Shown: in pieces, positions 12,243 through 38,264 of the stretch
Layout: every line of letters begins with the position of its first letter
How positions within the stretch are numbered: the stretch's first letter is position 1
Source: Candidatus Moraniibacteriota bacterium
Lineage (GTDB): Bacteria > Patescibacteriota > Minisyncoccia > Moranbacterales > UBA2206
NCBI GenBank assembly: GCA_030679985.1
Contig: JAUXSI010000003.1
Location: 1 to 38,949 of the forward strand
Direction of reading: 5' to 3'
Length of the DNA stretch: 38,949 nt
The notes under the pieces: model-generated
The model's database searches: none
The model's input: only the letters and a program-made list of their open reading frames with translations
What the model was told of the DNA's origin: nothing
Translations under genes and position numbers: made by a program

Positions 12243-12704
12243 ATGGCGCTTATGAAAAAAATTTTGACATCCGGTATCGCAATTTTGGTTTTGTGTTTGG
12301 CTTTCTCACCCTGGACAGCCGCTTTGGCGCAGACTTTGCCAGGCGGATTGGTGCCGTGCGGCAATGGGAACGATCCGTGCACGCTGTGCCATTTCATCAT
12401 TGGATTCTATAATATGGTGGGCGTTATGCTGAAGCTGGTCGTCACCGCGGCTTTGGCGGGAATTTTCATTTCCGGGGTGATGTATATCATTTCGGCCGGG
12501 GATGAAACGATGATGACGGGCGCCAAAAATTTCCTGAAAGCCAGCATAACAGGTTTCGTGGTGGTGTTGGGTGCTTTCCTGATTGTGAATGTGACGATGT
12601 GGGCGCTGTCGGCGAAAGACTCCAATGGTGACGGCGTGTCGGATATGGGCGTCGGACAAGCTGGGTGGTTTTCATTCACCTGTTCGACTGAATCGTTAAA
12701 ATAA
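12243..12704 (+). CDS. VirB2/TrbC-like small membrane protein 1
   Basis: 153 residues. A signal peptide (about 1-29, ending AALAQ) precedes a short Cys-containing segment (CGNGNDPCTLC). Two membrane helices follow: about 56-85 (MLKLVVTAALAGIFISGVMY) and 95-120 (ITGFVVVLGAFLIVNVTMWA), separated by the polar loop SAGDETMMTGAKNFLKA. This two-helix plan with G-x-x-Y-I and a charged loop is that of VirB2/TrbC pilin-like proteins. A tail with DSNGDGVSD could bind calcium. Start at 12243 or 12252. It is the first of five such genes. Confidence 0.75.
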   Translation: MALMKKILTSGIAILVLCLAFSPWTAALAQTLPGGLVPCGNGNDPCTLCHFIIGFYNMVGVMLKLVVTAALAGIFISGVMYIISAGDETMMTGAKNFLKASITGFVVVLGAFLIVNVTMWALSAKDSNGDGVSDMGVGQAGWFSFTCSTESLK

Positions 12705-12720
12705 TTTTTTTAATAAGTCT

Positions 12721-13662
12721 ATGCGAAGCAGTAAATATTTTTTTGGGATAATTTTTTTAGCAGGGGTTTTGTTTTTTTCCGTCGGATTGGCTCAGGCGGT
12801 GTGCGTGCGAAGCGTGAATGTCAACGGAGCAGTCGGAAATTGCTGTGACAACAATCTTAACCAGCAAGAATGTGACGCGGTCACATACGGAACGCATACT
12901 TGGGCGGATACCTGCCCCCAATTCGTGCCTTCCTGCGGATTTCCAGCTGCAACCGTCCCATCTGCACAAGTCCCGCTAGGATCTTCCCATACTCAAACTG
13001 TTCCTGCTCCTGCGAATTCTCTGGCTCCTGCGCATACGCCAACCACTTCAACAACGCCAGGCGTTGAAAACTCTCTTGCTCCTTCGCACAAATCGACTTC
13101 GGCCAATACCGCTGCTACCGGCACGACCGTCACCACGACTTTCGTCAATCCGATCCGTTTCAGTACGGTTTCGGAGGTGGTGGGTGCGTTGCTCAGTAAT
13201 TTGAAAGGCATCATTGCGACGGTAGCTATTTTGTTCATCGTCATCGGAGGCGTGATGTATATCCTGTCAGGCGGGAACGAAAAGACGATCACGACCGCCA
13301 AAAACACGATCACTTCCGCGTTGATCGGCTTGGCCATCGCGTTGGCCGCGCCGACATTTTTGAAAGAGATACAAAACATCTTGGGCGGCGGATCAGGCGC
13401 CAATCCGGACGAGCTGGTCAACAACGCGCTGACGTTGAACCAGATCGCGATGCGGACATTGAATTTGTTATTGTCGATAACCGGTATCCTTGCTATAATC
13501 GGATTAGTGATCGGAGGCTCATATTATTTCACGGCTTATGGCGATGAGAAGCGGGCGGAAACCGGCAAAGGCATCATCACTTCGGCGATAATCGGAATCG
13601 TGATCGTGATGGCGGCCCTGATAATCGTCAGGCAGATCGCGTCGCTTCTAGGGGTAAGCTAG
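12721..13662 (+). CDS. VirB2/TrbC-like membrane protein 2 with two pilin-like units
   Basis: 313 residues. A signal peptide (1-26, ending AQA) is followed by a Cys-rich region (about 27-75) and a Pro/Thr/Ala-rich linker with repeated NSLAP-H motifs (about 76-140). Two VirB2-like units then occur in tandem, about 155-222 (ILFIVIGGVMYILSGGNEKT) and 238-312 (IIGLVIGGSYYFTAYGDEKR). The tandem arrangement is unusual, as pilins normally have one unit. It lies 16 nt after the previous pilin-like gene, within the same likely operon. Confidence 0.75.
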   Translation: MRSSKYFFGIIFLAGVLFFSVGLAQAVCVRSVNVNGAVGNCCDNNLNQQECDAVTYGTHTWADTCPQFVPSCGFPAATVPSAQVPLGSSHTQTVPAPANSLAPAHTPTTSTTPGVENSLAPSHKSTSANTAATGTTVTTTFVNPIRFSTVSEVVGALLSNLKGIIATVAILFIVIGGVMYILSGGNEKTITTAKNTITSALIGLAIALAAPTFLKEIQNILGGGSGANPDELVNNALTLNQIAMRTLNLLLSITGILAIIGLVIGGSYYFTAYGDEKRAETGKGIITSAIIGIVIVMAALIIVRQIASLLGVS

Positions 13663-13728
13663 GCCCGGGTATGATAAAAGACAGATTGGGAATAAAATAA
13701 AAAATCAAAATAGAAAGGTAGGTGCAAT

Positions 13729-14088
13729 ATGAAAAATAAAATCAGGGCGTTTGCGTCAGCCGTCTCAGTGATGGCGATGGCTCTTCCGATGCTTGTTTCC
13801 GCGGCCGCGTTCAAAGCGCCGACGGGGACCGGCTTGCCGGAAGGCAGCATCACGGGCATCATCACCAACATAATGAATTGGTTGCTGATGCTGGTCGGAA
13901 TCATCGGTGTGATCGGTTTTGCGATCGCGGGTATCCTATACCTGACGGCGGCTGGAGATGAAGGCCGGATAGATACCGCCAAAAGCGCGATGCTATATTC
14001 CATCGTAGGAGTTATCGTCGCGATCATCGGTGTCGTAGTCATCAAAGCGGCGCAAGGTTTATTGAGCGGAACAAGTTCGACTTTCTAA
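13729..14088 (+). CDS. VirB2/TrbC-like small membrane protein 3
   Basis: 119 residues, the minimal form of the family. A signal peptide (about 1-26) is followed by GLPEGSITGIITNIMNWLLM, helix one ending in a GILYL segment, the loop TAAGDEGRIDTAKSAM, and helix two (SIVGVIVAIIGVVVIKAAQG). An AGGTAGGTG ribosome site is visible upstream of ATG. The motif GLPEGSITGII is nearly identical in the next protein, showing recent duplication. A strong terminator follows. Confidence 0.8.
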   Translation: MKNKIRAFASAVSVMAMALPMLVSAAAFKAPTGTGLPEGSITGIITNIMNWLLMLVGIIGVIGFAIAGILYLTAAGDEGRIDTAKSAMLYSIVGVIVAIIGVVVIKAAQGLLSGTSSTF

Positions 14089-14104
14089 TCGCGATTTCCA
14101 TATC

Positions 14105-14137
14105 AAAAAGCAGCCTGTGGATAACTGGCTGCTTTTT
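14105..14137 (+). terminator. Rho-independent terminator
   Basis: AAAAAGCAGCC pairs with GGCTGCTTTTT around an 11-nt loop, 17 nt after the stop of the 119-residue pilin-like gene. Confidence 0.85.
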
Positions 14138-14165
14138 CATTTGCGGGGAGCTGAATATTTTTTAA

Positions 14166-14180
14166 AAAATATGGTATAAT
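14166..14180 (+). promoter_or_regulatory. Extended -10 promoter of pilin-like genes 4 and 5
   Basis: TATAAT at 14175-14180 preceded by TGG gives an extended -10. It overlaps an upstream in-frame ATG (14179), which argues that translation really starts at 14278. Confidence 0.6.
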
Positions 14181-14277
14181 GCAAGCAGGTTACCGGATAC
14201 AAAAAAACAATAAAATAAATATTAAAATAAACCCGGCCGGATATGCGCAAAAACAGATCCGACAGGTTGTACAAAAA

Positions 14278-14745
14278 ATGAAAAAGTTTTTCAGAGTGGT
14301 GTCGGTTTTCGCGCTGGCTGTAGCGATGATGTTTCCCGCGGTTTCTTTGGCGGCTGACCAGTGGGGATTCGGTATCGGCAGCGGAGGCGTGTCCGGAGGC
14401 TATTCCGGCAGTAGTGGATCTTTCGGGTTTAATGTGGGCAATTCAAGCGGGATCGGCAGCGGGTGGAATCCCGGCAATCTTTCCGGTTTCGGCTTGCCGG
14501 AAGGTAGTATCACCGGCATCATTGTGAATATCCTAGATTGGCTTCTGTTCATCTTCGGACTTTTGGGAATCATCGGCTTCTTGATTTCCGGCATAATGTA
14601 TATCCTGGCTTCCGGAAATGACGATATGATCGAGAAAGCCAAAAGCGGGATGAAATTTTCGATCATCGGCGTCTTGGTCGGTTTGTCCGGTGTGGTGATT
14701 ATCCGGGCGATCGACGCGATTTTGGCCACCGGCTATACTATCTAA
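14278..14745 (+). CDS. VirB2/TrbC-like small membrane protein 4
   Basis: 155 residues from the ATG at 14278 (MKKFFRVVSVFALAVAMMFP), chosen because the upstream in-frame ATG lies inside the -10 box. A signal peptide (1-26) is followed by a Gly/Ser-rich stretch (about 27-72) absent from protein 3, then GLPEGSITGIIVNILDWLLF, a GIMYI segment, the loop LASGNDDMIEKAKSGM and a final helix. The Gly/Ser stretch may be a flexible surface spacer. Confidence 0.8.
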   Translation: MKKFFRVVSVFALAVAMMFPAVSLAADQWGFGIGSGGVSGGYSGSSGSFGFNVGNSSGIGSGWNPGNLSGFGLPEGSITGIIVNILDWLLFIFGLLGIIGFLISGIMYILASGNDDMIEKAKSGMKFSIIGVLVGLSGVVIIRAIDAILATGYTI

Positions 14746-14763
14746 TTTTTTTAAAAAATATAA

Positions 14764-15432
14764 ATGAAAATAAAAAAAGAAATAATTTTATTTTTTCTAT
14801 TGGTGGTAGTCGGCTTGGCATTTTCTAAAAATATTTACGCGGCTTGCGTTGCGGGAAGTCCGTGTACGCTGGATAATCCAGTAGATGGAAGCTTTGTCGG
14901 AAAATGTACTCCGGAAGGAGCATGTTTCCCAGTGACTACGGGCTCGGCGGCTTCGGAACTGACGGCGGAGGACAATGCTATAAATGATTTGTTGCGTCCA
15001 GGTTCATCTTCAACTACACCGACAGATGAAGCTGTGAATGATTTTTTACATCCGACCTCGACTGTTAATTCAAATAGTTTGCCAGGATCATCGCAGGTTA
15101 ATAATTTAAATAGCCTCCCAGGAGCTACTAAGGTTACGCCAGCGGAAGGCGTGCATATTCCCACCGCAGCTGAAACCGGTTTGTCCGATGTTGGCATCAA
15201 GGCACTTCTGATGAGTCTGTTGCGGTGGCTTCTGGGTATTGTAGGCGTGATAGCCTTGATCGGGTTTGTGATTTCCGGCATCCAATACATAATTTCCAGC
15301 GGAAACGAGGATATGGCGAAGACCGCCAAGCAGAATATGACGAATGCCATCATTGGTATCGTAGTGGTGATGGCTTCTTTGGTGATTATCCAGGCAATCG
15401 ATTATGCTTTGCGCGGATATTCAGTTTTTTAG
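14764..15432 (+). CDS. VirB2/TrbC-like membrane protein 5 with long linker
   Basis: 222 residues. A signal peptide (1-26, ending YA) is followed by a Cys-containing segment (CVAGSPC, then CTPEGAC) and a Ser/Thr/Pro-rich linker of about 85 residues with repeats of NDLLRPGSS / NDFLHPTST and NSLPGSS / NSLPGAT type. The C-terminal unit (about 145-220) has LLGIVGVIALIGFVISGIQY, the loop ISSGNEDMAKTAKQNM and a last helix. It has the same pilin-like core as the others with a distinct exported head, and ends at a strong terminator. Confidence 0.78.
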   Translation: MKIKKEIILFFLLVVVGLAFSKNIYAACVAGSPCTLDNPVDGSFVGKCTPEGACFPVTTGSAASELTAEDNAINDLLRPGSSSTTPTDEAVNDFLHPTSTVNSNSLPGSSQVNNLNSLPGATKVTPAEGVHIPTAAETGLSDVGIKALLMSLLRWLLGIVGVIALIGFVISGIQYIISSGNEDMAKTAKQNMTNAIIGIVVVMASLVIIQAIDYALRGYSVF

Positions 15433-25304: not shown

Positions 25305-26582
25305 TCATTTCCGGATAAATTTGAGATATATCACGTATTCTTTCGAGCGGGATCCGAACGATTCAAAAATCAGCGGCGGATCTTCTCTTCCGAGTTTTTC
25401 CGGCAAGTGCGGATAGAGGCTGGCTGAATTGTTCCCGGACGTTTCAAGCAAAGAAAATGTTCCCGAACTCGAATCGGCGACGCGGATTTTGCCATCCGGC
25501 GGATTTTCGTTAGGCAGGTTCGACGGTTCTTCCGACTCCATCCAAGCGATGCTTGATTTTCCATCATCATCAATTCCGATGCTTGGAAAAAATTGGTTTA
25601 TGCTGGAAGGGGCGACGGTGATTATTTCCGACCAAGCGCCGTTTTCCAAAGAGCGATAAACGATTTGGGAATATCCGGAAGCGTCCTGCGATCTCCAGGC
25701 GATATGCAATTTACCGTTCGGACCTAGCGCCGCGCTGACATGCCTGGAATCGGAAACGGGATCGGAAACGGCTTGCCAGCCGTTCCATGATTCCCCGCTA
25801 TCGTCCGACCAGCCATGCTGGATTTGTTGCCGGTCATCGCTGTTGCCGAAAGAAGAATACATCAATAAGTGCAACCGACCGGATCGTTCCTGCACGATTG
25901 TCGGCCGCGATTGCGTATTATCAGGGGTTGTCCGGACGTTTTTCCAGTGGATCCACGTCGCGCCTCCGTCATCCGAGCGGGAAAATTTTATCTGCTGTTT
26001 CGGGTGGTTGGCGTCTTTCCCTTCCCAGACTGCGAACAGCACGTCATTGTCGCCGACCAGGAGGTGGGGATGTTCCTGCCAATAATCTTCGCCGCCATAG
26101 CCGTCTACCGGCGCGATATTTTTCCAGGATGACCACGTCGCGCCTCCGTCAATCGAGCGGGAATATTTGATCTGGCGGTTGTCGATCTCACTGTCCGAAT
26201 CAGCACCATACCATATGACATGGACGCGGTCTTTGGAATCGATGTCGATAGAAGGCACTCGTTGGTCGGATTTTTTGCCGACTGCGGCGATCGGCACATC
26301 TGTCCCGGAAGCCAGCCATTCGTTTTTTTGCCGGCTTATTTTGGCTACGAATATCTCTGATTTGCCCCGGTATTTTTTCCGGTAAGCCGCAAAAATATTA
26401 CCAGCGGAGTCGACAGCGATCTTTCTTTGTCCGGAATATCCCAGCCCTCTCAGATCTTCGGTCGCGTCGATCCGTACTTCGGTTTCCTGGGCTGTTTTAC
26501 GCAAAGCGTAGATTAAAACCGCGGACAAAAACGATGCCGACAACAGGGTGACTATCAAGGATGTTTTTAGATGGGGACGCAT
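25305..26582 (-). CDS. Membrane-anchored Asp-box (BNR/sialidase-like) repeat protein
   Basis: 425 residues. An N-terminal helix (about 8-27) anchors it, and the rest should be extracytoplasmic. Asp-box motifs SRSIDGGATW (141-150), SRSDDGGATW (201-210) and a degenerate SDDSGESW (about 259-266) alternate with strands such as RVHVIWYGA, VLFAVWEGK and KLHIAWRSQ, giving a six-bladed beta-propeller like sialidases and BNR proteins. The sialidase active-site Arg triad cannot be confirmed, so a binding role is as likely as catalysis. Its start is 6 nt after the polymerase-epimerase fusion, so it is the third gene of the polyuronate operon. Confidence 0.75.
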   Translation of the reverse strand: MRPHLKTSLIVTLLSASFLSAVLIYALRKTAQETEVRIDATEDLRGLGYSGQRKIAVDSAGNIFAAYRKKYRGKSEIFVAKISRQKNEWLASGTDVPIAAVGKKSDQRVPSIDIDSKDRVHVIWYGADSDSEIDNRQIKYSRSIDGGATWSSWKNIAPVDGYGGEDYWQEHPHLLVGDNDVLFAVWEGKDANHPKQQIKFSRSDDGGATWIHWKNVRTTPDNTQSRPTIVQERSGRLHLLMYSSFGNSDDRQQIQHGWSDDSGESWNGWQAVSDPVSDSRHVSAALGPNGKLHIAWRSQDASGYSQIVYRSLENGAWSEIITVAPSSINQFFPSIGIDDDGKSSIAWMESEEPSNLPNENPPDGKIRVADSSSGTFSLLETSGNNSASLYPHLPEKLGREDPPLIFESFGSRSKEYVIYLKFIRK

Positions 26583-26588
26583 AGCGGA

Positions 26589-29342
26589 TCATTTATTGGT
26601 TATGTGCGCATCTTTTTTATTTTCAAAAGGTTTGAGGTTGTTGTAGAACGTGTTTTCCGAAGCGTTCTGGAGCGAAATCCCCAGTCCGTTATTTTTGACC
26701 GTGTTGTTTATTAGGGTATTTCCACGCGCTTCCTGGTAGAGATGGAAACCGCTTGCGTTGGATAATATTCGGTTGTTTTCGAGATAGTTGGCGGAAGAGT
26801 CGCGGTTTATCCGGATGCCTTGTTTGTTGCCGTAAAGGTTGTTCGCTAAGACGATATTGTTATTTGATTCGTAAATCGCAAGACCATCCGTATTTTGGTA
26901 GGCGGTGTTGTCGATTACGATATTGCGGTCGGACAGCTTGTGCAACATTATGCCGTGGAGCCGGTTTTGGAAGGATATGTTTTCGGAAATAGTGTTGTTA
27001 TAGCATCTCTTGGAAAGTATTATGCCGTGCGTGCCGTTGCTGAAAGTGCGGTTGCGGCTGATCAACATATTGTTGGAATCATCGTGCGGGTCGATGCCAT
27101 ATCGGATATTGTTGAACACTTGATTATCCTTGATGACGGCTCCGGTGACGCCGAAAGTATAGATACCGAAATAATTATCATGGATGGAGCTGTTGATTAC
27201 TGAACCGGTCAAAAGATTATCTTTGAATTTCCCGCTGGTTATTTTCCAAGACAGTCCGTATGATCCGCCGAAAGGACCTCCCCGCCTAGGCAAGCCTTCA
27301 TAACCCAAATAGGCTATTTCCGAATCGATGATATCCATCCGCCCGCTGCCTTTGGCGACTATGTGGCTGCGTCCGGTCGCATATTCGATATCCGGCGCTC
27401 CCTTGTTTTCATCCCACGAGGTGATTTTTATGCCTGAGATGAGGATGTTGCCGCCTTGGGAGCGGATCCAAATATGTCCGGCATCATCGCTTTTGAGTTT
27501 GAGATAATCCGCCTCGCGCTGATCCAAAACCAGGGTGACATTTTTTCCGATGTAAAGATTGGAGCGCAGGATCCATTCGCCTGGGCCGGTTTCCTCCAGC
27601 GGTACGGAATTATCCAACAACGCCCGTCGGATTTTGGACAAGGTGACGACGCTTCCGGCATTTTTCACGTGGATCGTGTTGGATTGCGCGTTGAAAAATA
27701 TGACAGGCGGTTGGCGGAAGTTCCGACTGTCCAAGAGTATGTCCGGGTCGAGGGGGTTTTGCAATTCCCTAACCGGAACCATTATTTTTCTACCAGCCGG
27801 GATGAGATTAGGATTGGCGATGGGCGCATTATGTTCATAGGTGATCGTGGATATCGAGCCGATATTGAATTTGTTCCGCAATAAGCCCAATGAGTCTCCC
27901 GGTTGTATCGTGTAAAAACCATACGCGTCGCCGGATATTCTAGCAAGAATAGCTTCCTTTTTTTGAAGTATCTCAAAGGTAGGGATTGAATCCAGTTCTG
28001 GGGATTGGGCGGAGGTTGCCCCGTTTTCCTTGGAAAGAGCCGGCTGGTATAAATTTTTTTGCGAATAAAGAGAAACTGCGCTGAAATATCCAGCCAGGAT
28101 GAAAAATAACCCTAAATAGGCGGCCATCTTTTTTAGCGGGGAAACTTTTTTCAAGCGGCTATCATCCCAACGGGTAATCCAACCTTGTTGGCCTACGGTC
28201 AGGAGGGCATATATCTTGATTACGGCCGAAACGAATGTGAACAGTACATAATGGGGCATAATCAGGATGTCGTCGGGATATTTTTTCAGATGCCCGTAAA
28301 TTTTGATGGAACGGCTTATGATCCACCAAGCCAGAAAAATCGGAATGATTTGCCAATATCCGCGGCTTATGGCTACGAAAAAATAAACAGGACCCAAAAG
28401 CAACGTGAAGGGCTGGAAAAACCGGTCGATCATATGGAACGCCAGGATTTTGTTTCTTCTCCATACCCAACTTTCCGACAAGGTTTTCAGGTCGGAGCGC
28501 CAGCTATTCCGGTTCCAGCGGACGAATTGTTTTAGGAATGGGGAAATTTCCCCGAAGCCGGGTGTGGAGACTACGGCGTCCTGGACGTATCTGACTTTCC
28601 ACCCGGCCTTTTGGACCAGGCGGGTGAGGGTCTTATCATCTCCGCTGATGACGTTTTGTCCGAGGAATTTTTCTTCTACCAATTCATCGGTATGTTGGAT
28701 GATTGCGGATCTGCGATAAACCGCCGTCCGGCCGGACAAACAAGTCAGGGCGTCTCCGAACGCGGCCAAAAATGGCATCTCGTTGAGATAACGATTGTCC
28801 AGATGTATCTGAAAGAGTTTTTTGGACAGGGTGTCTGGCACGTAAACGTTTTGGCGGGTGGCGACTCCGCCGACTTTCGGGTCGGAAAAGGGGCGCAGTA
28901 CCTTGCTTTTGATCGGTTCGGTCCAGATGGTATCGCTGTCGACCAGAGCTACGAATTCCGTTGTTGCCAGCTTGATCCCGTCCGCTAAAGCCGGACGTTT
29001 CCCCGGCTTTGAAGTGATCAGAAGTTTGGCAGTCGCGTTTTTTTCGGCGAATTTCCGGAATATCCCGATACAATCCTTATCCGAGTGGTCGATTACGGCG
29101 ATCAACTCATCAGGATTCCCGTTCAATTGCCAGAAATACAGAGCCGCTTCGAATACCGCGGGCTTTTCGTTGTAAACAGGAACGATTATCGCAAGCGTTC
29201 CCTCGCGGAGCTGTCCATCCGGCAACCGATAAAAGAGAGCGATGATTTTTTTGAGCAACCAAACCGACCATCTCCAAATGCCGATTATTCCAAGGGGAAC
29301 AAGGAATAACGCCAAGTCGCCGTACTGTTTGATTTCCTCCAT
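26589..29342 (-). CDS. Fused GT2 polysaccharide synthase - LysM - mannuronan C5-epimerase-like protein
   Basis: 917 residues. After a membrane helix (about 10-35) a GT2 domain (about 48-300) shows DSD (135-137), SGDD (233-236) and Q272-F-V-R275-W276, the processive-synthase signatures of hyaluronan synthase and Alg8. Further membrane helices lie at about 309-345, 362-384 and 406-424, with GWITR (387-391) before the last. A LysM domain (about 476-524, YTIQPGDSL to IPAGRKIMVPV) and a right-handed beta-helix (about 540-905) follow. The helix holds YGIDPHD (748-754), the catalytic signature of AlgG/AlgE mannuronan C5-epimerases, then THGIILSKRC. I infer that one protein polymerises, exports and epimerises an alginate-like chain. 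Epimerase specificity is not proven. Confidence 0.85.
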   Translation of the reverse strand: MEEIKQYGDLALFLVPLGIIGIWRWSVWLLKKIIALFYRLPDGQLREGTLAIIVPVYNEKPAVFEAALYFWQLNGNPDELIAVIDHSDKDCIGIFRKFAEKNATAKLLITSKPGKRPALADGIKLATTEFVALVDSDTIWTEPIKSKVLRPFSDPKVGGVATRQNVYVPDTLSKKLFQIHLDNRYLNEMPFLAAFGDALTCLSGRTAVYRRSAIIQHTDELVEEKFLGQNVISGDDKTLTRLVQKAGWKVRYVQDAVVSTPGFGEISPFLKQFVRWNRNSWRSDLKTLSESWVWRRNKILAFHMIDRFFQPFTLLLGPVYFFVAISRGYWQIIPIFLAWWIISRSIKIYGHLKKYPDDILIMPHYVLFTFVSAVIKIYALLTVGQQGWITRWDDSRLKKVSPLKKMAAYLGLFFILAGYFSAVSLYSQKNLYQPALSKENGATSAQSPELDSIPTFEILQKKEAILARISGDAYGFYTIQPGDSLGLLRNKFNIGSISTITYEHNAPIANPNLIPAGRKIMVPVRELQNPLDPDILLDSRNFRQPPVIFFNAQSNTIHVKNAGSVVTLSKIRRALLDNSVPLEETGPGEWILRSNLYIGKNVTLVLDQREADYLKLKSDDAGHIWIRSQGGNILISGIKITSWDENKGAPDIEYATGRSHIVAKGSGRMDIIDSEIAYLGYEGLPRRGGPFGGSYGLSWKITSGKFKDNLLTGSVINSSIHDNYFGIYTFGVTGAVIKDNQVFNNIRYGIDPHDDSNNMLISRNRTFSNGTHGIILSKRCYNNTISENISFQNRLHGIMLHKLSDRNIVIDNTAYQNTDGLAIYESNNNIVLANNLYGNKQGIRINRDSSANYLENNRILSNASGFHLYQEARGNTLINNTVKNNGLGISLQNASENTFYNNLKPFENKKDAHITNK

Positions 29343-29351
29343 ATGTTTTAT

Positions 29352-30323
29352 TTAATAATTCGCAAAAGAAGGGCTGTACTTTTTGGAATACAGGCGCTTG
29401 GGTTCGTTGAGCGTCTGGATCTTTTTGAGGCTGTCATTTTCCAAAGATCCTTTCAACAAATCATTTGTCCGGATAACCCCTTTCAGCACGGGCAGTTCGA
29501 AATCCAATTCTTCCGAAGTCCAATTGAGAAAGGCCATAGTGTCTTTAGGCAGGCATGATCCGCTGAAGGGGCCGAAATTCCTGGTTCCGTATTCCGGATT
29601 CCACATCGCTTCCGCGCTTTTCAAAACCGTCTTGAAAACCAGGTCCGAGTTGAGTTGCAGCCGGTCTCCAACCATCCGCATCTCATTGAAAAAAGATATT
29701 TTGGTAGCGTTGAGCAGGTTGTGCACATATTTCATCATTTCGGCTTCCTTAAGTGACATATGATAAATCGGCGCATCGAAATCTTCATACACCTTGCCAA
29801 GCAACAGTCCGGAAAGTTCATCGTCGGCTCCGATAACGACGACCCAGGGGTGGGCATAATCTTCGTCCGCGCTGATTTCACGGAGAAATTCCGGATTCAT
29901 GCAAACGCCGAAATCCTCCGTAACTTTTTTTCCGGAAAATTTTTCCAAGATGGGGATGAGTTTTTTTTCGATAGTCCCGGGCGGAACCGTGCTGCGGATG
30001 ACCACCAAAGGGAAATCGGCCGTCGTTTTCCGCAGCGCTTTGCCGACTTCTTTGGCGGCCGCTTCGATATGGCGCAAAACCACATGTCGCCGTACGGTCG
30101 GAGTCCATACGCTCAGCATGAAAATGTCAAAATCATCGTCGGTTTCGGCGATGGTCTCGATGTGGCGGGCGGCATAGCCAGCGCTAGCCAGGTTATTGAT
30201 GACCTTCGCCTGTACGTCGAAAAAAACAACCTTATGGCCTTTTTGCAGCATCCCTTTGCCAGTGGCTCGGCCGACAAAACCGCTGCCGACGACGGCGATC
30301 CTTTTGGAAAGTTGCTTTTTCAT
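29352..30323 (-). CDS. UDP-glucose/GDP-mannose 6-dehydrogenase family protein, C-terminal domain missing
   Basis: 323 residues from the ATG at 30323 (MKKQLSKRIAVVGSGFVGRA); a GTG at 30362 would add 13 without a ribosome site. The NAD-binding Rossmann motif VGSGFVGRATG, STVPPGT, MNPEFLREISA and the catalytic GSCLPKD (Cys257) are present. Enzymes of this family oxidise UDP-glucose to UDP-glucuronate or GDP-mannose to GDP-mannuronate. The usual C-terminal nucleotide-sugar-binding domain of about 120 residues is lacking; only 66 residues follow the Cys. It leads the operon, 9 nt from the synthase-epimerase gene, so GDP-mannuronate supply (AlgD-like) is inferred. Confidence 0.82.
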   Translation of the reverse strand: MKKQLSKRIAVVGSGFVGRATGKGMLQKGHKVVFFDVQAKVINNLASAGYAARHIETIAETDDDFDIFMLSVWTPTVRRHVVLRHIEAAAKEVGKALRKTTADFPLVVIRSTVPPGTIEKKLIPILEKFSGKKVTEDFGVCMNPEFLREISADEDYAHPWVVVIGADDELSGLLLGKVYEDFDAPIYHMSLKEAEMMKYVHNLLNATKISFFNEMRMVGDRLQLNSDLVFKTVLKSAEAMWNPEYGTRNFGPFSGSCLPKDTMAFLNWTSEELDFELPVLKGVIRTNDLLKGSLENDSLKKIQTLNEPKRLYSKKYSPSFANY

Positions 30324-30495
30324 ATGGTTGCTGGAACCTGTACGCAAGTACGTTTCCGTCACACGCCATAAAATCCCGTTACGACCCGCCGCTGAAGAAA
30401 TCGATTATGATCATATTGATTGACATAAGTTAGCGCGCTGTTTTTTCGTTTGGAATTTTAAAATCACATAACGAAACAAACTGGCTGACAGGCTC

Positions 30496-30617: not shown

Positions 30618-30646
30618 TTGACATATTTTCCGGCCGGATTTATAAT
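30618..30646 (+). promoter_or_regulatory. Perfect-consensus promoter of the PL7 lyase gene
   Basis: TTGACA (30618-30623), 17-nt spacer, TATAAT (30641-30646). A TTGCGG/CCGCAA hairpin (about 30657-30678) lies in the leader. High expression is expected unless a repressor acts. Confidence 0.85.
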
Positions 30647-30709: not shown

Positions 30710-31630
30710 ATGAAAAAAAATTTAAACATGTATCTGGCGTTACTTATGATCATCCTTCCGATCGGAGGATTTTTTTTGTATCAGAATTTTTTTACGGCGG
30801 GCGTGGCTGAAATCGCGGAGGCGAAAAAGAGCGTGTCGGACCAGAAAAGCGCGGATGCGCCCCTGACTGCGCAAGCCGAGCCGGAAACCGGACAAGGGGC
30901 CGAACAGGAAGCCGTGGACATCGAACCGGCTGTCGCCAATGAGGCGGCTGTCGTCCGGACTGGGTGCTCGTATCCTTCCCAAATCCTGGATCTGGCTGAG
31001 TGGAAACAGACTTTGCCGACCGGTTCTTCCAAAAAACCGGTTGAAATAAAACAAGCATCACTCGCATCGTACTCGCTGAATCCGTATTTTTTCCCGAACG
31101 CCACTTGTGACGGAGTGGTTTTCCGGGCACCGGTCAACGGGGTCACGACCAGCGGTTCCGGCTATCCCCGTTCCGAGTTGAGGGAAATGAAAGACGGCGG
31201 AAAAACTTTGGCGAGTTGGTCGACAAGCTCCGGCACGCACTCGATGTTTATCGACCAGGCGATTACCGCCGTGCCCAAGACCAAAAAACACGTGGTCGCC
31301 GGCCAGATCCACGACGCGGATGACGATGTCGTGGTCGTGCGTTTGGAATATCCCAAGCTTTTCGTGGATATCAACGGCAAGACCGGACCGACGCTGGATC
31401 CGAATTATACTTTAGGCAAAAGATTCACGGTCAAATTCGTGGCCGCCAACGGCCAGATCAAAATCTATTACAATGGCAGCGCAACTCCGGCTTATACGAT
31501 GGACAAAAAAAGTTCGGGGAACTATTTCAAGGCCGGCGCCTACACCCAATCCAATTGTTCCAAGGAAAAATCTTGCAGTGACAGCAATTTCGGAGAAGTG
31601 GTCATCCACAAGCTCACGGTGCAGCACTAA
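30710..31630 (+). CDS. Membrane-anchored PL7-family alginate lyase
   Basis: 306 residues. An N-terminal anchor (about 8-28) and a Ala/Glu-rich spacer (30-82) hold a PL7 jelly-roll catalytic domain (about 88-305) outside the membrane. All three PL7 signatures are present: RSELR (154-158), QIH (199-201) and YFKAGAYTQ (272-280), which supply the catalytic Arg, Gln, His and Tyr. Such enzymes cut alginate by beta-elimination. Two or more Cys pairs (for example C283 and C289) could form disulfides. It is divergent from the synthase operon and may trim or release the cell's own polymer, or attack foreign alginate. Confidence 0.9.
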   Translation: MKKNLNMYLALLMIILPIGGFFLYQNFFTAGVAEIAEAKKSVSDQKSADAPLTAQAEPETGQGAEQEAVDIEPAVANEAAVVRTGCSYPSQILDLAEWKQTLPTGSSKKPVEIKQASLASYSLNPYFFPNATCDGVVFRAPVNGVTTSGSGYPRSELREMKDGGKTLASWSTSSGTHSMFIDQAITAVPKTKKHVVAGQIHDADDDVVVVRLEYPKLFVDINGKTGPTLDPNYTLGKRFTVKFVAANGQIKIYYNGSATPAYTMDKKSSGNYFKAGAYTQSNCSKEKSCSDSNFGEVVIHKLTVQH

Positions 31631-33354: not shown

Positions 33355-33409
33355 TATCGGGTGGAAATGAGATAATATGTCCGTTGGATTGTATTTTATA
33401 TACAGAGGT

Positions 33410-34630
33410 ATGGAAAATTATTTCAATAATCGAAAGAGATCTTTTTTGATGCGGGCTAATGTCCCATTTAGCGCCGCGGTTTTAATTATGCTCGCTTTGT
33501 CAGGCGGCGTGTTGTATTTGTTGGATAGTGGCCTGGATGGGATAACTGAACAAACGGCTTATACGGGCGTTTTTGTTAATCGCACTGATGCTAGCGCGGT
33601 TCCGATCCGGGAAGATAATATAGTCCGGCATTTTTCTCCTGGGCCGATTTCAATGGCGCTGGTAAAGAGCAATGGTTGTGTCGCGGATGGTTTTTTGTCC
33701 GGTTACGGCGGCCGGACCGGAGAGGCGGTCAAGATGATTAATCGGTCGAAATGCGTCTATCTCCACCGCGCGTTGGAAACATGGCTCAAGCCACCGAATT
33801 TCGAGAAGGCGTTCGGTATCATGGAAGAAGTCGAAAAAAGGCCGATCATATACGGGATGTTCTTAGCTGAAGCGATTTCAATGCGGAAAGAATATGATGA
33901 CCCGATCCTGGACCAGGAGCACCGCTTCGACCAGATGTGCCGGGAAGGTACCAAGGGGCGTTGGGGCGACGAAACTTGCATTCCAAGTATCCAGAACGTC
34001 GAATATCGACGCTATTTGAAAGCGGTGACGCGCCGAGCGATGGATCTGGGCATCCAGAGTTTCATGTTCGGACAAATCCAATTGCAAGACGAGCATCCTA
34101 ACTTTGAAGAAACCGAAATAAAAAAGGTTCTGGATGATATGCGGAGCTATGCCAAGGAAAGGGATATGGAAATCATTATCGGAGCACAGACGGATGATGT
34201 CACTGATGAAAAATATCTCAAGCTTTTCGATTACATAGAGGGCGGGGTTGGAATTGATAATTTGGGCAACGTGGAAGATCAACCTTGCTTCAGCGGGCAC
34301 TCGAGCTGCTGGGCGTTGTTGTGGGATAAAAAATACAGCTCCAAAGCGAACAATGTCCTTTTGCATCTCGATTGGAGCGGATTCACTTGGGATGATATGG
34401 GGGTTTTCGCGCGGATGCCGCAAGAAAGGAGGATTAAGACCCTGGACAGTCTGTATAAGAAGTTCACTTCGCAGAAGATGGGGTTTATGATGCCGTTTTT
34501 GGCGGTGCTGAACAAGGAAAATAACGGCTGTTACGGCCCGAATAAAAATTTTTATTCCCCAAGCGATAAATTCAAATGCAAGGATGAAGGATATATAAAC
34601 GAAATTATGAAAGATGTCGTGGTGCGCTAA
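33410..34630 (+). CDS. Membrane-anchored protein of unknown family, possible TIM-barrel fold
   Basis: About 406 residues from the ATG at 33410. The frame opens at 33377, but that ATG overlaps a likely -10 (TAATAT, 33373-33378); an ATG at 33449 is also possible. A basic N-terminus (NNRKRSF) and hydrophobic helix (VPFSAAVLIMLALSGGVLYL) anchor it. The outer part alternates strands and helices: RPIIYGMFLAEAIS, IQSFMFGQIQL, MEIIIGAQT, YIEGGVGI, NVLLHLDWSG and MGFMMPFLAVL, which resembles a glycosidase-like TIM barrel. Acidic residues at strand ends (AEA, HLDW) could be catalytic. No family is recognised. It may act on surface polysaccharide near the polyuronate locus. Confidence 0.65.
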   Translation: MENYFNNRKRSFLMRANVPFSAAVLIMLALSGGVLYLLDSGLDGITEQTAYTGVFVNRTDASAVPIREDNIVRHFSPGPISMALVKSNGCVADGFLSGYGGRTGEAVKMINRSKCVYLHRALETWLKPPNFEKAFGIMEEVEKRPIIYGMFLAEAISMRKEYDDPILDQEHRFDQMCREGTKGRWGDETCIPSIQNVEYRRYLKAVTRRAMDLGIQSFMFGQIQLQDEHPNFEETEIKKVLDDMRSYAKERDMEIIIGAQTDDVTDEKYLKLFDYIEGGVGIDNLGNVEDQPCFSGHSSCWALLWDKKYSSKANNVLLHLDWSGFTWDDMGVFARMPQERRIKTLDSLYKKFTSQKMGFMMPFLAVLNKENNGCYGPNKNFYSPSDKFKCKDEGYINEIMKDVVVR

Positions 34631-35577: not shown

Positions 35578-35970
35578 ATGGAAGTGAAAAATAAATTCGG
35601 GAAAATCTTGACCGGTTTTGCCGGCGCGTCTTTCGTGGCGACTGCCGTGATGGGAATAAAAATCGGAGAGGATAACAAGCGGATCGCGAAGCTCGAAGAA
35701 GATTTGAACGGATATAATTCTTCGATGGCGGAAGTTCTGGATACCCAGAAGCAGATTATCTCCGGGCGGGAGGCTATCCTGGATAATCTGGCCAAAGCGG
35801 CGGCACCGGAGACTACGAAAAAAGTCACAAGTCAAACGGTGGTTCCCGGCAAGACAGTCACACAGAAAGTGCCCGTAGCCACCAAAAGTTCTTCGAAATC
35901 ATCCTCTTCCAAATCAACCAGTTCGTCCTCCTCATCTTCTAAATCAAGTAAGACCACCGGGACTTCATAA
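35578..35970 (+). CDS. Small membrane protein with coiled coil and Ser-rich tail
   Basis: 130 residues. A hydrophobic N-terminal helix (about 10-28, LTGFAGASFVATAVMGIKIG) is followed by a predicted coiled coil (about 30-72, NKRIAKLEEDLNGYN) and a low-complexity tail in which Ser and Lys dominate (about 103-130). No family is recognised. The plan suggests a membrane-tethered, surface-exposed or periplasmic protein. It lies 116 nt after the amidase and 19 nt before the acidic repeat protein, so it may belong to the same unit as the latter. Confidence 0.6.
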   Translation: MEVKNKFGKILTGFAGASFVATAVMGIKIGEDNKRIAKLEEDLNGYNSSMAEVLDTQKQIISGREAILDNLAKAAAPETTKKVTSQTVVPGKTVTQKVPVATKSSSKSSSSKSTSSSSSSSKSSKTTGTS

Positions 35971-35989
35971 ATCCACGAATATATAACAT

Positions 35990-36418
35990 ATGAAAACAAT
36001 AATAGCTAGGATAGGGATGGTCGGACTGCTTTTTTTAGCAGGTTTTGCCTGGGCGGTTTTCCCTCCGAAAGTCCCGCAGGTGCCGGTCCACGTGGCGGTG
36101 GCTGACGATGGCGAAGAGGATGAGGAGCACGAGGAAGATGAGCGCGATGAAGATGAAGAGCATGAGGATGATGATGAATATGAATCGGAAAAAGAGGATC
36201 AGCCGATAGTCGAAGAAGAGGATGAGGTGAAAATAGAATACGAGTTCGTGACGCAGAAATTGCCGGATACGGTCGTGGATACGGTCGTGGAAATTCCGCG
36301 TTATGACAGCGATGGCGACGGGTTGTATGACGATGAGGACCCGCATCCGGACATCAATGAATTCCTGATCGTCAAGGATGATAATTTGAATGGATTAGAT
36401 GATAGGTATGAACGATGA
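35990..36418 (+). CDS. Exported acidic protein with calcium-binding repeat
   Basis: 142 residues. A signal peptide (1-22, ending WA) precedes a very acidic region (about 40-85, almost all Asp, Glu and His), then VTQKLPDTVVDTVVEIPRYD and a thrombospondin-type-3-like calcium motif DSDGDGLYDDEDPHPD near residue 105. It should be exported and bind divalent cations. Its stop overlaps the start of apbE by 11-20 nt, so the two are translationally coupled, and a similar calcium repeat occurs in the reductase-like protein downstream. This ties it to the redox module. Confidence 0.7.
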   Translation: MKTIIARIGMVGLLFLAGFAWAVFPPKVPQVPVHVAVADDGEEDEEHEEDERDEDEEHEDDDEYESEKEDQPIVEEEDEVKIEYEFVTQKLPDTVVDTVVEIPRYDSDGDGLYDDEDPHPDINEFLIVKDDNLNGLDDRYER

Positions 36419-37358
36419 AAAATTTACCAGGATCAATGATGCTTTCCAGTGTATGGGAACCGCTGTCGCGGTGGAAATAACCGTCGCTGACGCAGTCGAT
36501 GCGGCTGGCAAAGCCAGAAAAGCCATCGGGGGCATCAAAGATATTTTTGCGGAAAATGAGAGGATCTTCAGCCGCTTTGATCCGGACAGCGAACTGTCCA
36601 GAATCAATGCCAATATCGGAAAGAGGATGGGCGTGTCGGAGAAAATGTTTGAAGTATTGGAGTTGTGCCTCAAATTTTATGAACTTTCGGAGGGTTATTT
36701 CGATCCCCGGGTTTTAGAAAATTTGGAAAAGATCGGTTATGACAGAGATTTCAGAAGCAATGATTTGAACCGGGACGGCAATCAGGCGATTGAATTGTCG
36801 AAAATCACGGGTGGGCTGGCGGATGATTTGGTCCTGGATCCGGATGGCAATTCCATCATGGTGAAAAAAAGAATCGACACTACCGGCATAGCGAAAGGGT
36901 ATGCGGTCGATGAGGTAGCTAGGTTTTTGGAACAGCAGGGATTTGCGGATTTTATCGTCGATGCCGGAGGGGATATGCAGGCGCGCGGAATCGATGCGGA
37001 TGGTGCGAGGTGGACAGTGGATATTGAAGGTATGGAGGCGGGCAAGCTCAGGCTCAAGCTGGATGACGAGGGTGTCGCCACTTCCGGCATCAGCCGGAAA
37101 AGGTGGATCGTGGGAGATAGGAAATTCCACCATCTGGTGAACCCGAAGGATCCAGAAAATTTCTCCTATGACATCAAGACCGTCACGGTCATCGAGAAAA
37201 AAACCGTTGAAGCTGATGGTCGCGCCAAAGTATTGGTCTTGATGGGCAAAGAGAAAGGAATCGGATTTGCCGACAGAAATAACATCAAGGCTTTGTTTTT
37301 GGACTATCGGGGAAATGTTTATTTGTCAAAAGCGATGAAGGAAAAAATTTTAAATTAG
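36399..37358 (+). CDS. apbE: FAD:protein FMN transferase (ApbE)
   Basis: 319 residues (an ATG at 36408 would give 316). ApbE attaches FMN to Ser/Thr of exported redox proteins with Mg. The family motifs are FQCMGTAVAVEIT at the N-terminus, RIDTTGIAKGYAVDEVARFL, FIVDAGGDMQARG, ATSG and HHLVNPKDP, which bind FAD and metal; VEADGRAKVLVLMG stands where A-D-x-x-A/S-T is usual. No signal peptide or lipobox is seen, which is odd, as most ApbE act outside; the protein may work in the cytosol or be exported otherwise. No FMN acceptor motif (D-x-x-S/T-G-A-T) is found nearby. Confidence 0.9.
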   Translation: MIGMNDEKFTRINDAFQCMGTAVAVEITVADAVDAAGKARKAIGGIKDIFAENERIFSRFDPDSELSRINANIGKRMGVSEKMFEVLELCLKFYELSEGYFDPRVLENLEKIGYDRDFRSNDLNRDGNQAIELSKITGGLADDLVLDPDGNSIMVKKRIDTTGIAKGYAVDEVARFLEQQGFADFIVDAGGDMQARGIDADGARWTVDIEGMEAGKLRLKLDDEGVATSGISRKRWIVGDRKFHHLVNPKDPENFSYDIKTVTVIEKKTVEADGRAKVLVLMGKEKGIGFADRNNIKALFLDYRGNVYLSKAMKEKILN

Positions 37359-37379
37359 ATGTGGTCCATCCTTATTTAA

Positions 37380-38264
37380 TTGGTTAAATGGAATCGATTG
37401 AAAACTGGAAAATTAAAATTCAAGACCGTTGTCCTGGCCGTGGCGCTTTTGGCGATGAGTTTCCCTGCGGGTATCGCTACGGCGGAAAATAATGTGGATT
37501 ATGGCGATCAAGTCGTCATTGATAGCGATTTGGACGGTCTCACGGATCAAGCGGAGGTGCAAATCTACGGCACTGATCCAATTAATCCGGATACCGACGG
37601 CGACGGGATACTTGATGGGGCGGAAGTCGTGCGTGGCACAGATCCGCAAGATGCCGATGATCCGGCCACGGCTTTGGGCGAGAATATCGCCGGCAATTTG
37701 GGAGATGAAACTCCCTGGGCTTGGTATGTCGTCCGCGCGTCCGGGTTCGTAAGTTTCGGATTTTTGTGGATCACTATCTTTTTGGGACTGGCTATCAGGA
37801 ACCCGTGGCTTAAAAAATTTATCGAACCGGCATACAGTTTCGATTTCCATTGCTTTACGGCCGCCGCCGCCGTTTTTTGGACGCTGGTCCATGGCGCGGG
37901 TTTGCTTTTCGATGAGTCGATCGGTTTCGGAATCAAGGACGTGGCGATTCCATATTTTTCCCAAGCCACGATTATCGATACGGACTACCTAGCTCTCGGC
38001 ATCATGGCTTTCTATATGATGGCGATTATGACCGTCACGTCATATCTGCGCCAGCATATAAACCATTGGTTGTGGCGCGTGTTGCATTTCTTGAATCCGT
38101 TGGCGTTTATTTTCGCGGTAATGCACGGATACCAGAATGGTACGGATATGAAAAACGTTTATATCGCCGGCGCCTATTTGGCCTCTTCCGCCGTGCTAGT
38201 GCTGGTTTATCTTTCCAGCCTAGTCGCGGTTATCTGGGGAAAATTCAACAAAAAATCCGCATAA
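37380..38264 (+). CDS. Ferric-reductase-like transmembrane protein with exported calcium repeats
   Basis: 294 residues from a TTG at 37380 (another TTG at 37398). A signal sequence (about 14-35) precedes calcium-type repeats (DSDLDGLTDQAE and DTDGDGILDGAEV, about 48-85), then a membrane domain (about 112-288) with at least five helices. Paired His H157/H171 and H236/H249, spaced 14 and 13 residues, are the bis-haem ligands of ferric-reductase/MsrQ-like domains. It should pass electrons across the membrane. No flavin/NADPH domain is attached. With ApbE just upstream (21 nt), a flavin-linked extracytoplasmic electron path is inferred. Confidence 0.8.
   Translation: MVKWNRLKTGKLKFKTVVLAVALLAMSFPAGIATAENNVDYGDQVVIDSDLDGLTDQAEVQIYGTDPINPDTDGDGILDGAEVVRGTDPQDADDPATALGENIAGNLGDETPWAWYVVRASGFVSFGFLWITIFLGLAIRNPWLKKFIEPAYSFDFHCFTAAAAVFWTLVHGAGLLFDESIGFGIKDVAIPYFSQATIIDTDYLALGIMAFYMMAIMTVTSYLRQHINHWLWRVLHFLNPLAFIFAVMHGYQNGTDMKNVYIAGAYLASSAVLVLVYLSSLVAVIWGKFNKKSA

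Follow-up and report, generated by a model that had tools for sequence, protein, structure and literature searches.

A candidate one-protein alginate-type polysaccharide synthase/epimerase in Candidatus Moraniibacteriota and other CPR bacteria

The stretch of DNA analysed here (the window) comprises 38,949 nucleotides of contig JAUXSI010000003.1 (GCA_030679985.1) from a Candidatus Moraniibacteriota bacterium, and computation alone yielded our observations, which cover the open reading frame (ORF) and how far it is conserved, the identities and folds of its domains, its catalytic motifs, the neighbouring genes and the GDP-mannose supply genes. The window encodes a 917-aa fusion protein (26589..29342, minus strand) in the order GT2 synthase, membrane helices, LysM and AlgG-type C5-epimerase, and its ORF is read from 29342 to 26589 with an ATG start and no internal stop. 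The initial annotation had described a single polypeptide with synthase and C5-epimerase, and this is borne out, with the minus strand, absent from that description, now added. The motifs also lie where they had been placed (DSD 135-137, QFVRW 272-276, GWITR 387-391 and YGIDPHD 748-754). On the same strand, a gene for a short NDP-sugar 6-dehydrogenase of the GDP-mannose/UDP-glucose type (29352..30362, minus strand), the first of the presumed operon, ends 9 bp upstream of the fusion, and a gene for a membrane-anchored beta-propeller (BNR) protein (25305..26582, minus strand) follows 6 bp downstream. Divergent from this synthase operon is a gene for a PL7 alginate lyase with a hydrophobic N-terminus (30710..31630, plus strand). 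Ahead of the lyase gene lies a perfect 12/12 sigma-70 consensus, TTGACA-N17-TATAAT (30618..30646, plus strand), a putative promoter recognized by consensus match alone, which may give the lyase an expression of its own, apart from that of the synthase operon.

The synthase half has the features of a processive HAS/NodC-like GT2, including DxD, (E/D)D, QxxRW, a gating motif and membrane helices. Its catalytic domain (residues 50-278; 28509..29195, minus strand; Pfam PF13641, E 2.6e-20) carries the DSD, SGDDKTLT and QFVRW motifs, and WITRW (residues 388-392; 28167..28181, minus strand) corresponds roughly in position to the gating loop of HAS/NodC. Across 23 aligned family members, DSD, SG(D/E)DKxLT and QxxRW are retained, with DCD replacing DSD in one protein (L033). 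When the PDB was searched by sequence, hyaluronan synthase 7sp7 was matched over residues 110-398 (E 2.7e-12), and in Foldseek searches of the PDB with the predicted model, hyaluronan synthases came second to AlgG (E 6.9e-17; TM-score of target 0.59-0.67). The NodC family model scored 102 bits on this half, under its cut-off. The GT2 synthase of the initial annotation was confirmed; among the sequences compared it is nearest to hyaluronan synthase/NodC, rather than a demonstrated Alg8. The Chlorella virus HAS, Xenopus HAS1 and NodC share the GT2 fold, the motifs and a C-terminal membrane region with the CPR protein, whereas the latter has one helix past the gating motif and an extra tail, predicted to lie outside, of about 470 residues. 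No evidence for alternating GlcNAc/GlcA was found in the CPR fusion.

The tail (residues 547-917; 26592..27704, minus strand) combines the right-handed beta-helix fold and the DPHD motif of AlgG-type mannuronan C5-epimerases, and the beta-helix was also matched by Pfam. AlgG (4nk6) was the PDB sequence match over residues 582-864 (E 4e-29) and the top Foldseek match of the model (E 1.5e-17; TM-score of target 0.73 for 4nk6 and 0.77 for 4ozz), which supports the reading of the YGIDPHD tail as an epimerase module both by sequence and by predicted fold. The tail is nearer to the periplasmic AlgG than to AlgE4/AlgE6. Since the AlgG equivalog model NF038177 gave only a partial match (567-845) of 130.8 bits against a cut-off of 700 bits, the tail is a distant relative of AlgG and not an orthologue. 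The catalytic motif (D751, P752, H753, D754; 27081..27092, minus strand) aligns with the DPHD of AlgG, in which we take His319 to be the base and Arg345 to provide charge neutralisation; the PDB entry 4nk8 is described as a D317A mutant of AlgG. Lys778, the neighbour of a conserved Arg779, aligns with the Arg345 position. DPHD is found in 22 of the 23 members and DTHD in the remaining one (L055), so that the Asp, the His and the second Asp are present in all 23.

The AlphaFold2 model of the fusion, built with 23 sequences, had a mean pLDDT of 87.8 (88 when rounded) and, as described above, resembles AlgG crystals and hyaluronan synthase; with a pTM of 0.54, the inter-domain arrangement is uncertain. 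In the model, the chain runs from an N-terminal helix through the GT2 domain, a group of three helices and the loop with WITRW to a long helix (402-443); next come a stalk of low confidence (433-454), the LysM-like unit (474-523) and the beta-helix (547-915). The last hydrophobic helix (28014..28139, minus strand) is predicted to run from inside to outside. Summed over 23 sequences and equal lengths, K+R number 108 before and 58 after this helix, a K/R-rich loop precedes it in most homologues, and no strongly hydrophobic stretches were found beyond it in the 23 sequences. As the GT2 domain would be cytosolic and a single helix with more K+R before it follows WITRW, the tail is predicted to lie outside, the placement on which the reading in the initial annotation depended. 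The LysM-like domain (residues about 474-524; 27771..27923, minus strand) is weak. Pfam LysM was absent from the window protein at E 0.01; the SafA-type LysM model (TIGR02899) matched residues 479-523 (E 1.6e-4), and the LysM protein Ecp6 (4b8v) was matched at E 4e-4 to 6e-4 with the single sequence and at E 2.2e-8 with the family profile. A weak LysM domain is present about where it had been annotated (476-524), but its holding of the complex to peptidoglycan was not upheld as a clearly conserved feature, because Pfam detected LysM in 11 of the 23 members and missed it in about half of the family. Anchoring by LysM is the weakest part of our reading.

Further fusions of this kind, which the initial annotation had proposed to look for, were found in many CPR lineages. 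In a survey of 380 phylum genomes, a profile search confirmed the fusion in three; the two full-length fusions beyond that of the window were both in WWE3 genomes, one of which (G242, MEWB01000001.1) is complete, curated and on a single contig. A scan of genome contigs gave 23 intact full-length fusion ORFs, one of which (L038) extends to the end of its contig, on 21 contigs from Parcubacteria, Moranbacteria, Levybacteria, Curtissbacteria, Daviesbacteria, Amesbacteria, Roizmanbacteria, Woesebacteria, WWE3 and other MAGs. The window protein was aligned end to end with 22 unbroken homologues at 40-58% identity, after L031, an apparent near-copy of L030, had been excluded. In a quick tree, the GT2 halves of the fusions formed one clade separate from archaeal GT2s (SH-aLRT 88), which is consistent with a single old fusion event. 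Two contigs (L030, 1107-7923; L034, 2965-9862) each carry two diverged tandem fusion copies flanking one dehydrogenase gene, and these copies possibly have differing products. Contigs filed as Chloroflexi and Dehalococcoidia (L041 and L045) bear CPR-like cassette genes, by either binning contamination or transfer, and the GT2 of L045 is without a detectable epimerase.

Stand-alone GT2s paired with a short dehydrogenase were seen in Nitrososphaeria (L049-L053) and haloarchaea (L054, L056), and these archaeal GT2s are 42-45% identical to the synthase half of the fusion (43-45% for Nitrososphaeria). A beta-helix protein near the GT2 in Nitrososphaeria has 30% identity over 390 aa to the fusion tail and is without DPHD, and the Nitrososphaeria dehydrogenase has Leu where UDP-glucose enzymes have Leu. 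For these two reasons, we rejected the idea that the archaeal genes are the complete system in unfused form; they are relatives, though not demonstrably of the same pathway. The best plasmid match, a GT2 on a Streptomyces plasmid, was also rejected as the same system, its neighbourhood being without epimerase or dehydrogenase.

The neighbours of the fusion recur with different frequencies. The dehydrogenase is beside or near the fusion on 20 of the 21 contigs with intact fusions, PL7 on nine and a propeller homologue on four; in the WWE3 genome G242 the three genes are in the order propeller, dehydrogenase, fusion. The window lyase is above the Pfam cut-off (PF08787, E 5.3e-44) and bears RSELR, QIH and YFKAGAYTQ, in agreement with the PL7 patterns R(S/T)EL(R), Q(I/V)H and YFKAGxY. 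Among the PL7 proteins of the contigs, RSELR and QIH (QVH in one) are retained, and YFKAGxY is found in more than half. As PL7 was above the cut-off in only one of the 380 phylum genomes, that of the window, background frequency does not account for its repeated presence next to the fusion. In the propeller protein (model pLDDT 82), a single N-terminal helix precedes the beta-propeller, whose nearest folds, with identities of about 10-16%, are those of GH145, PL27 and PL25 enzymes, a likeness of fold only.

The dehydrogenase and the sugar supply bear on the identity of the substrate. At about 300 aa, the dehydrogenases of this family are short and have no C-terminal domain, only PF03721 and PF00984 being matched by Pfam. 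The best PDB match was GDP-mannose 6-dehydrogenase 1mfz (E 1.9e-42), with UDP-glucose dehydrogenase close behind (1.9e-40). Of the published signature residues of GDP-mannose dehydrogenase (Arg122, His217 and Ala263; PMC4794789), the first position is Arg in the window enzyme (8 of 20 CPR members), while the second is Asn and the third is Pro in all 20. The catalytic Cys in CLPKD, Lys210 and Asn214 are kept, but these are not decisive for GDP-mannose since they are largely common to UDP-glucose dehydrogenases. Likewise, the Ala263 site does not settle the substrate, because brown-algal GDP-mannose dehydrogenases (GMDs), which are short (315-320 aa) and biochemically active, have Pro at the same place (PMC4782291). 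The best match of the algal GMDs was reported to be a Woesebacteria protein (40%; PMC11468063), and the cassette is present in a Woesebacteria contig (L039). Reading the sugar from the dehydrogenase residues was given up, as the signature gave a mixed answer. The genome of the window encodes a bifunctional mannose-1-phosphate guanylyltransferase/mannose-6-phosphate isomerase (GMP-PMI), which scored 485 bits against a cut-off of 373, together with a mutase of the phosphomannomutase type. GalU-like and RmlA-like enzymes are encoded as well, so the supply permits but does not prove GDP-mannose. No GDP-mannose supply genes were found in the WWE3 genomes. In the complete genome G242, which carries the cassette, there were zero matches to NTP_transferase (PF00483), and thus no supply route can be seen there for either GDP-mannose or UDP-glucose.

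Taken together, the fusion is probably a one-protein alginate-type polysaccharide synthase/epimerase, and our best reading is a self-contained enzyme with a HAS-like polymerase, serving a cell that has no exporter in an outer membrane. The dehydrogenase encoded upstream would make GDP-mannuronate, and the cytosolic HAS-like GT2 domain would polymerise a uronic acid, most likely mannuronate, into a chain that may be threaded through the membrane channel of the synthase itself. Outside, the AlgG-type beta-helix, carried on a flexible stalk with the LysM-like domain, would convert part of the mannuronate to guluronate, and the membrane-anchored PL7 lyase and beta-propeller may trim or hold the product. 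We infer the substrate, the outside tail, anchoring by LysM, the roles of lyase and propeller and the coupling of epimerisation to chain exit, which is plausible; the sugar, the coupling and the role of LysM are the most uncertain points. In favour of the alginate-type reading are the dehydrogenase, PL7 lyase, GMP-PMI and phosphomannomutase-type mutase in its context, the end-to-end conservation of the fusion, the AlgG and hyaluronan synthase matches of the model, the predicted topology and the near-invariant GT2 and DPHD motifs. Against it are Asn at His217, Pro at Ala263, the missing C-terminal domain of the dehydrogenase, its close PDB scores for the GDP-mannose and UDP-glucose enzymes, Lys778 at the Arg345 position of AlgG, the lack of NTP_transferase matches in the complete WWE3 genome and the pTM of the model.

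Several of these points would also fit a different uronan, such as a glucuronan-like polymer made from UDP-GlcA, in which the HAS-like synthase would reflect the substrate and the beta-helix would be a C5-epimerase (GlcA to IdoA) or a lyase. The nearest relative of the GT2 half, hyaluronan synthase, uses UDP-GlcA, the dehydrogenase is without the His217 of GMDs, GalU-like and RmlA-like nucleotidyltransferases are in the genome, and the propeller fold resembles the glucuronate-linked GH145/PL27/PL25. However, the epimerase is AlgG-like with DPHD, the lyase is a PL7 with alginate-lyase motifs, the dehydrogenase shares its Pro with the proven brown-algal GMDs (PMC4782291), and index 215 of the window dehydrogenase is Arg, of the GDP-mannose type; we consider this alternative unlikely. 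Quite improbable is a beta-helix that is inactive or a structural chain-binding domain fused to the synthase. The DPHD-less tail homologue of Nitrososphaeria may itself be such a domain, and Lys778 could be taken in the same sense, but the conservation of DPHD in 22 of the 23 members, and of its charged residues and His in all, is unexpected for a dead domain. Still a little less probable is a cell-bound, capsule-like product held by LysM and propeller, with a tail that tethers as much as it edits and with no free exopolysaccharide. It is compatible with the alginate-type synthase/epimerase, all outside enzymes of the cassette have a membrane helix or hydrophobic N-terminus, and no AlgE-type exporter was found (G000, G242, G309); on the other side, no gene for attachment to an acceptor was identified in the cassette and LysM was undetected in half of the family. 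Finally, although the chain is broken in three related MAG loci (L042, L043 and L044), there is practically no chance that a frame error or misassembly joined two adjacent genes, as had been a concern, since the junction is spanned by 22 further intact homologues, among them that of a complete curated genome, and the fusions form one clade; the fusion is genuine and chance is likewise excluded.

With the alginate system of Pseudomonas/Azotobacter, the CPR system has in common a GT2 synthase, an AlgG-type C5-epimerase, a sugar dehydrogenase and an alginate lyase, as well as phosphomannomutase and a GMP-PMI of the AlgA type. In contrast to the Alg8-Alg44 polymerase, periplasmic AlgG and AlgK/AlgE export of that system, synthase and epimerase are on one chain in CPR, the synthase is HAS/NodC-like, the PL7 lyase has a hydrophobic N-terminus and the dehydrogenase is short. 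In the fusion genomes G000, G242 and G309, we found neither a PilZ partner, as in the c-di-GMP-controlled Alg8-Alg44 polymerase, nor a match to the outer-membrane porin AlgE (PF13372). CPR cells are thought to be without an outer membrane, so both absences are expected. The outline resembles Alg8-Alg44-AlgG, but the fusion does not belong to that system. The secreted AlgE epimerases of Azotobacter and the mannuronan C5-epimerases of brown algae have a beta-helix with DPHD like the CPR tail; they are secreted or wall enzymes unfused to a synthase, whereas the CPR tail is fused. By published description, SjGMD1/2, the brown-algal GDP-mannose 6-dehydrogenases (315-320 aa), are like the CPR dehydrogenase in being short, in CLPKD and in a Pro five residues ahead of the catalytic Cys (PMC4782291).

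Every part of the fusion is already known, and the single synthase-epimerase chain is the element for which no description was found in the literature searched; the open-licence PMC literature gave nothing relevant on alginate in CPR/Patescibacteria/Parcubacteria or on synthase-epimerase fusions. If our reading is correct, very small genomes encode a self-contained machine that makes and edits an alginate-like polymer with no c-di-GMP partner and no outer-membrane exporter, which would be a candidate for producing alginate from a single gene. Brown algae have no validated mannuronan synthase so far (PMC11468063), and a polymerase that shares its chain with an epimerase whose type is known offers an experimental way in to a mannuronan synthase other than Alg8. 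A bolder and less likely possibility is that CPR have a second, Alg8-independent alginate pathway with polymerase and epimerase on one chain, and that the alginate genes of brown algae are related to, or derive from, those of this prokaryotic lineage, in which case the GT2 half would point to the algal mannuronan synthase.

Elsewhere in the window, a protein of 417 aa whose N-terminus includes a hydrophobic stretch (33377-34630) had no Pfam or NCBIfam match. At 12243-15432, an extracellular solute-binding protein is followed by several small membrane proteins, and three of the ones scanned match the type IV secretion pilin family. At 35578-38264, two small ORFs without a confident family precede a gene for an ApbE-type flavin transferase; next comes a ferric-reductase-like membrane protein that bears TSP3 repeats, and this region is a possible extracellular flavin/electron-transfer module.
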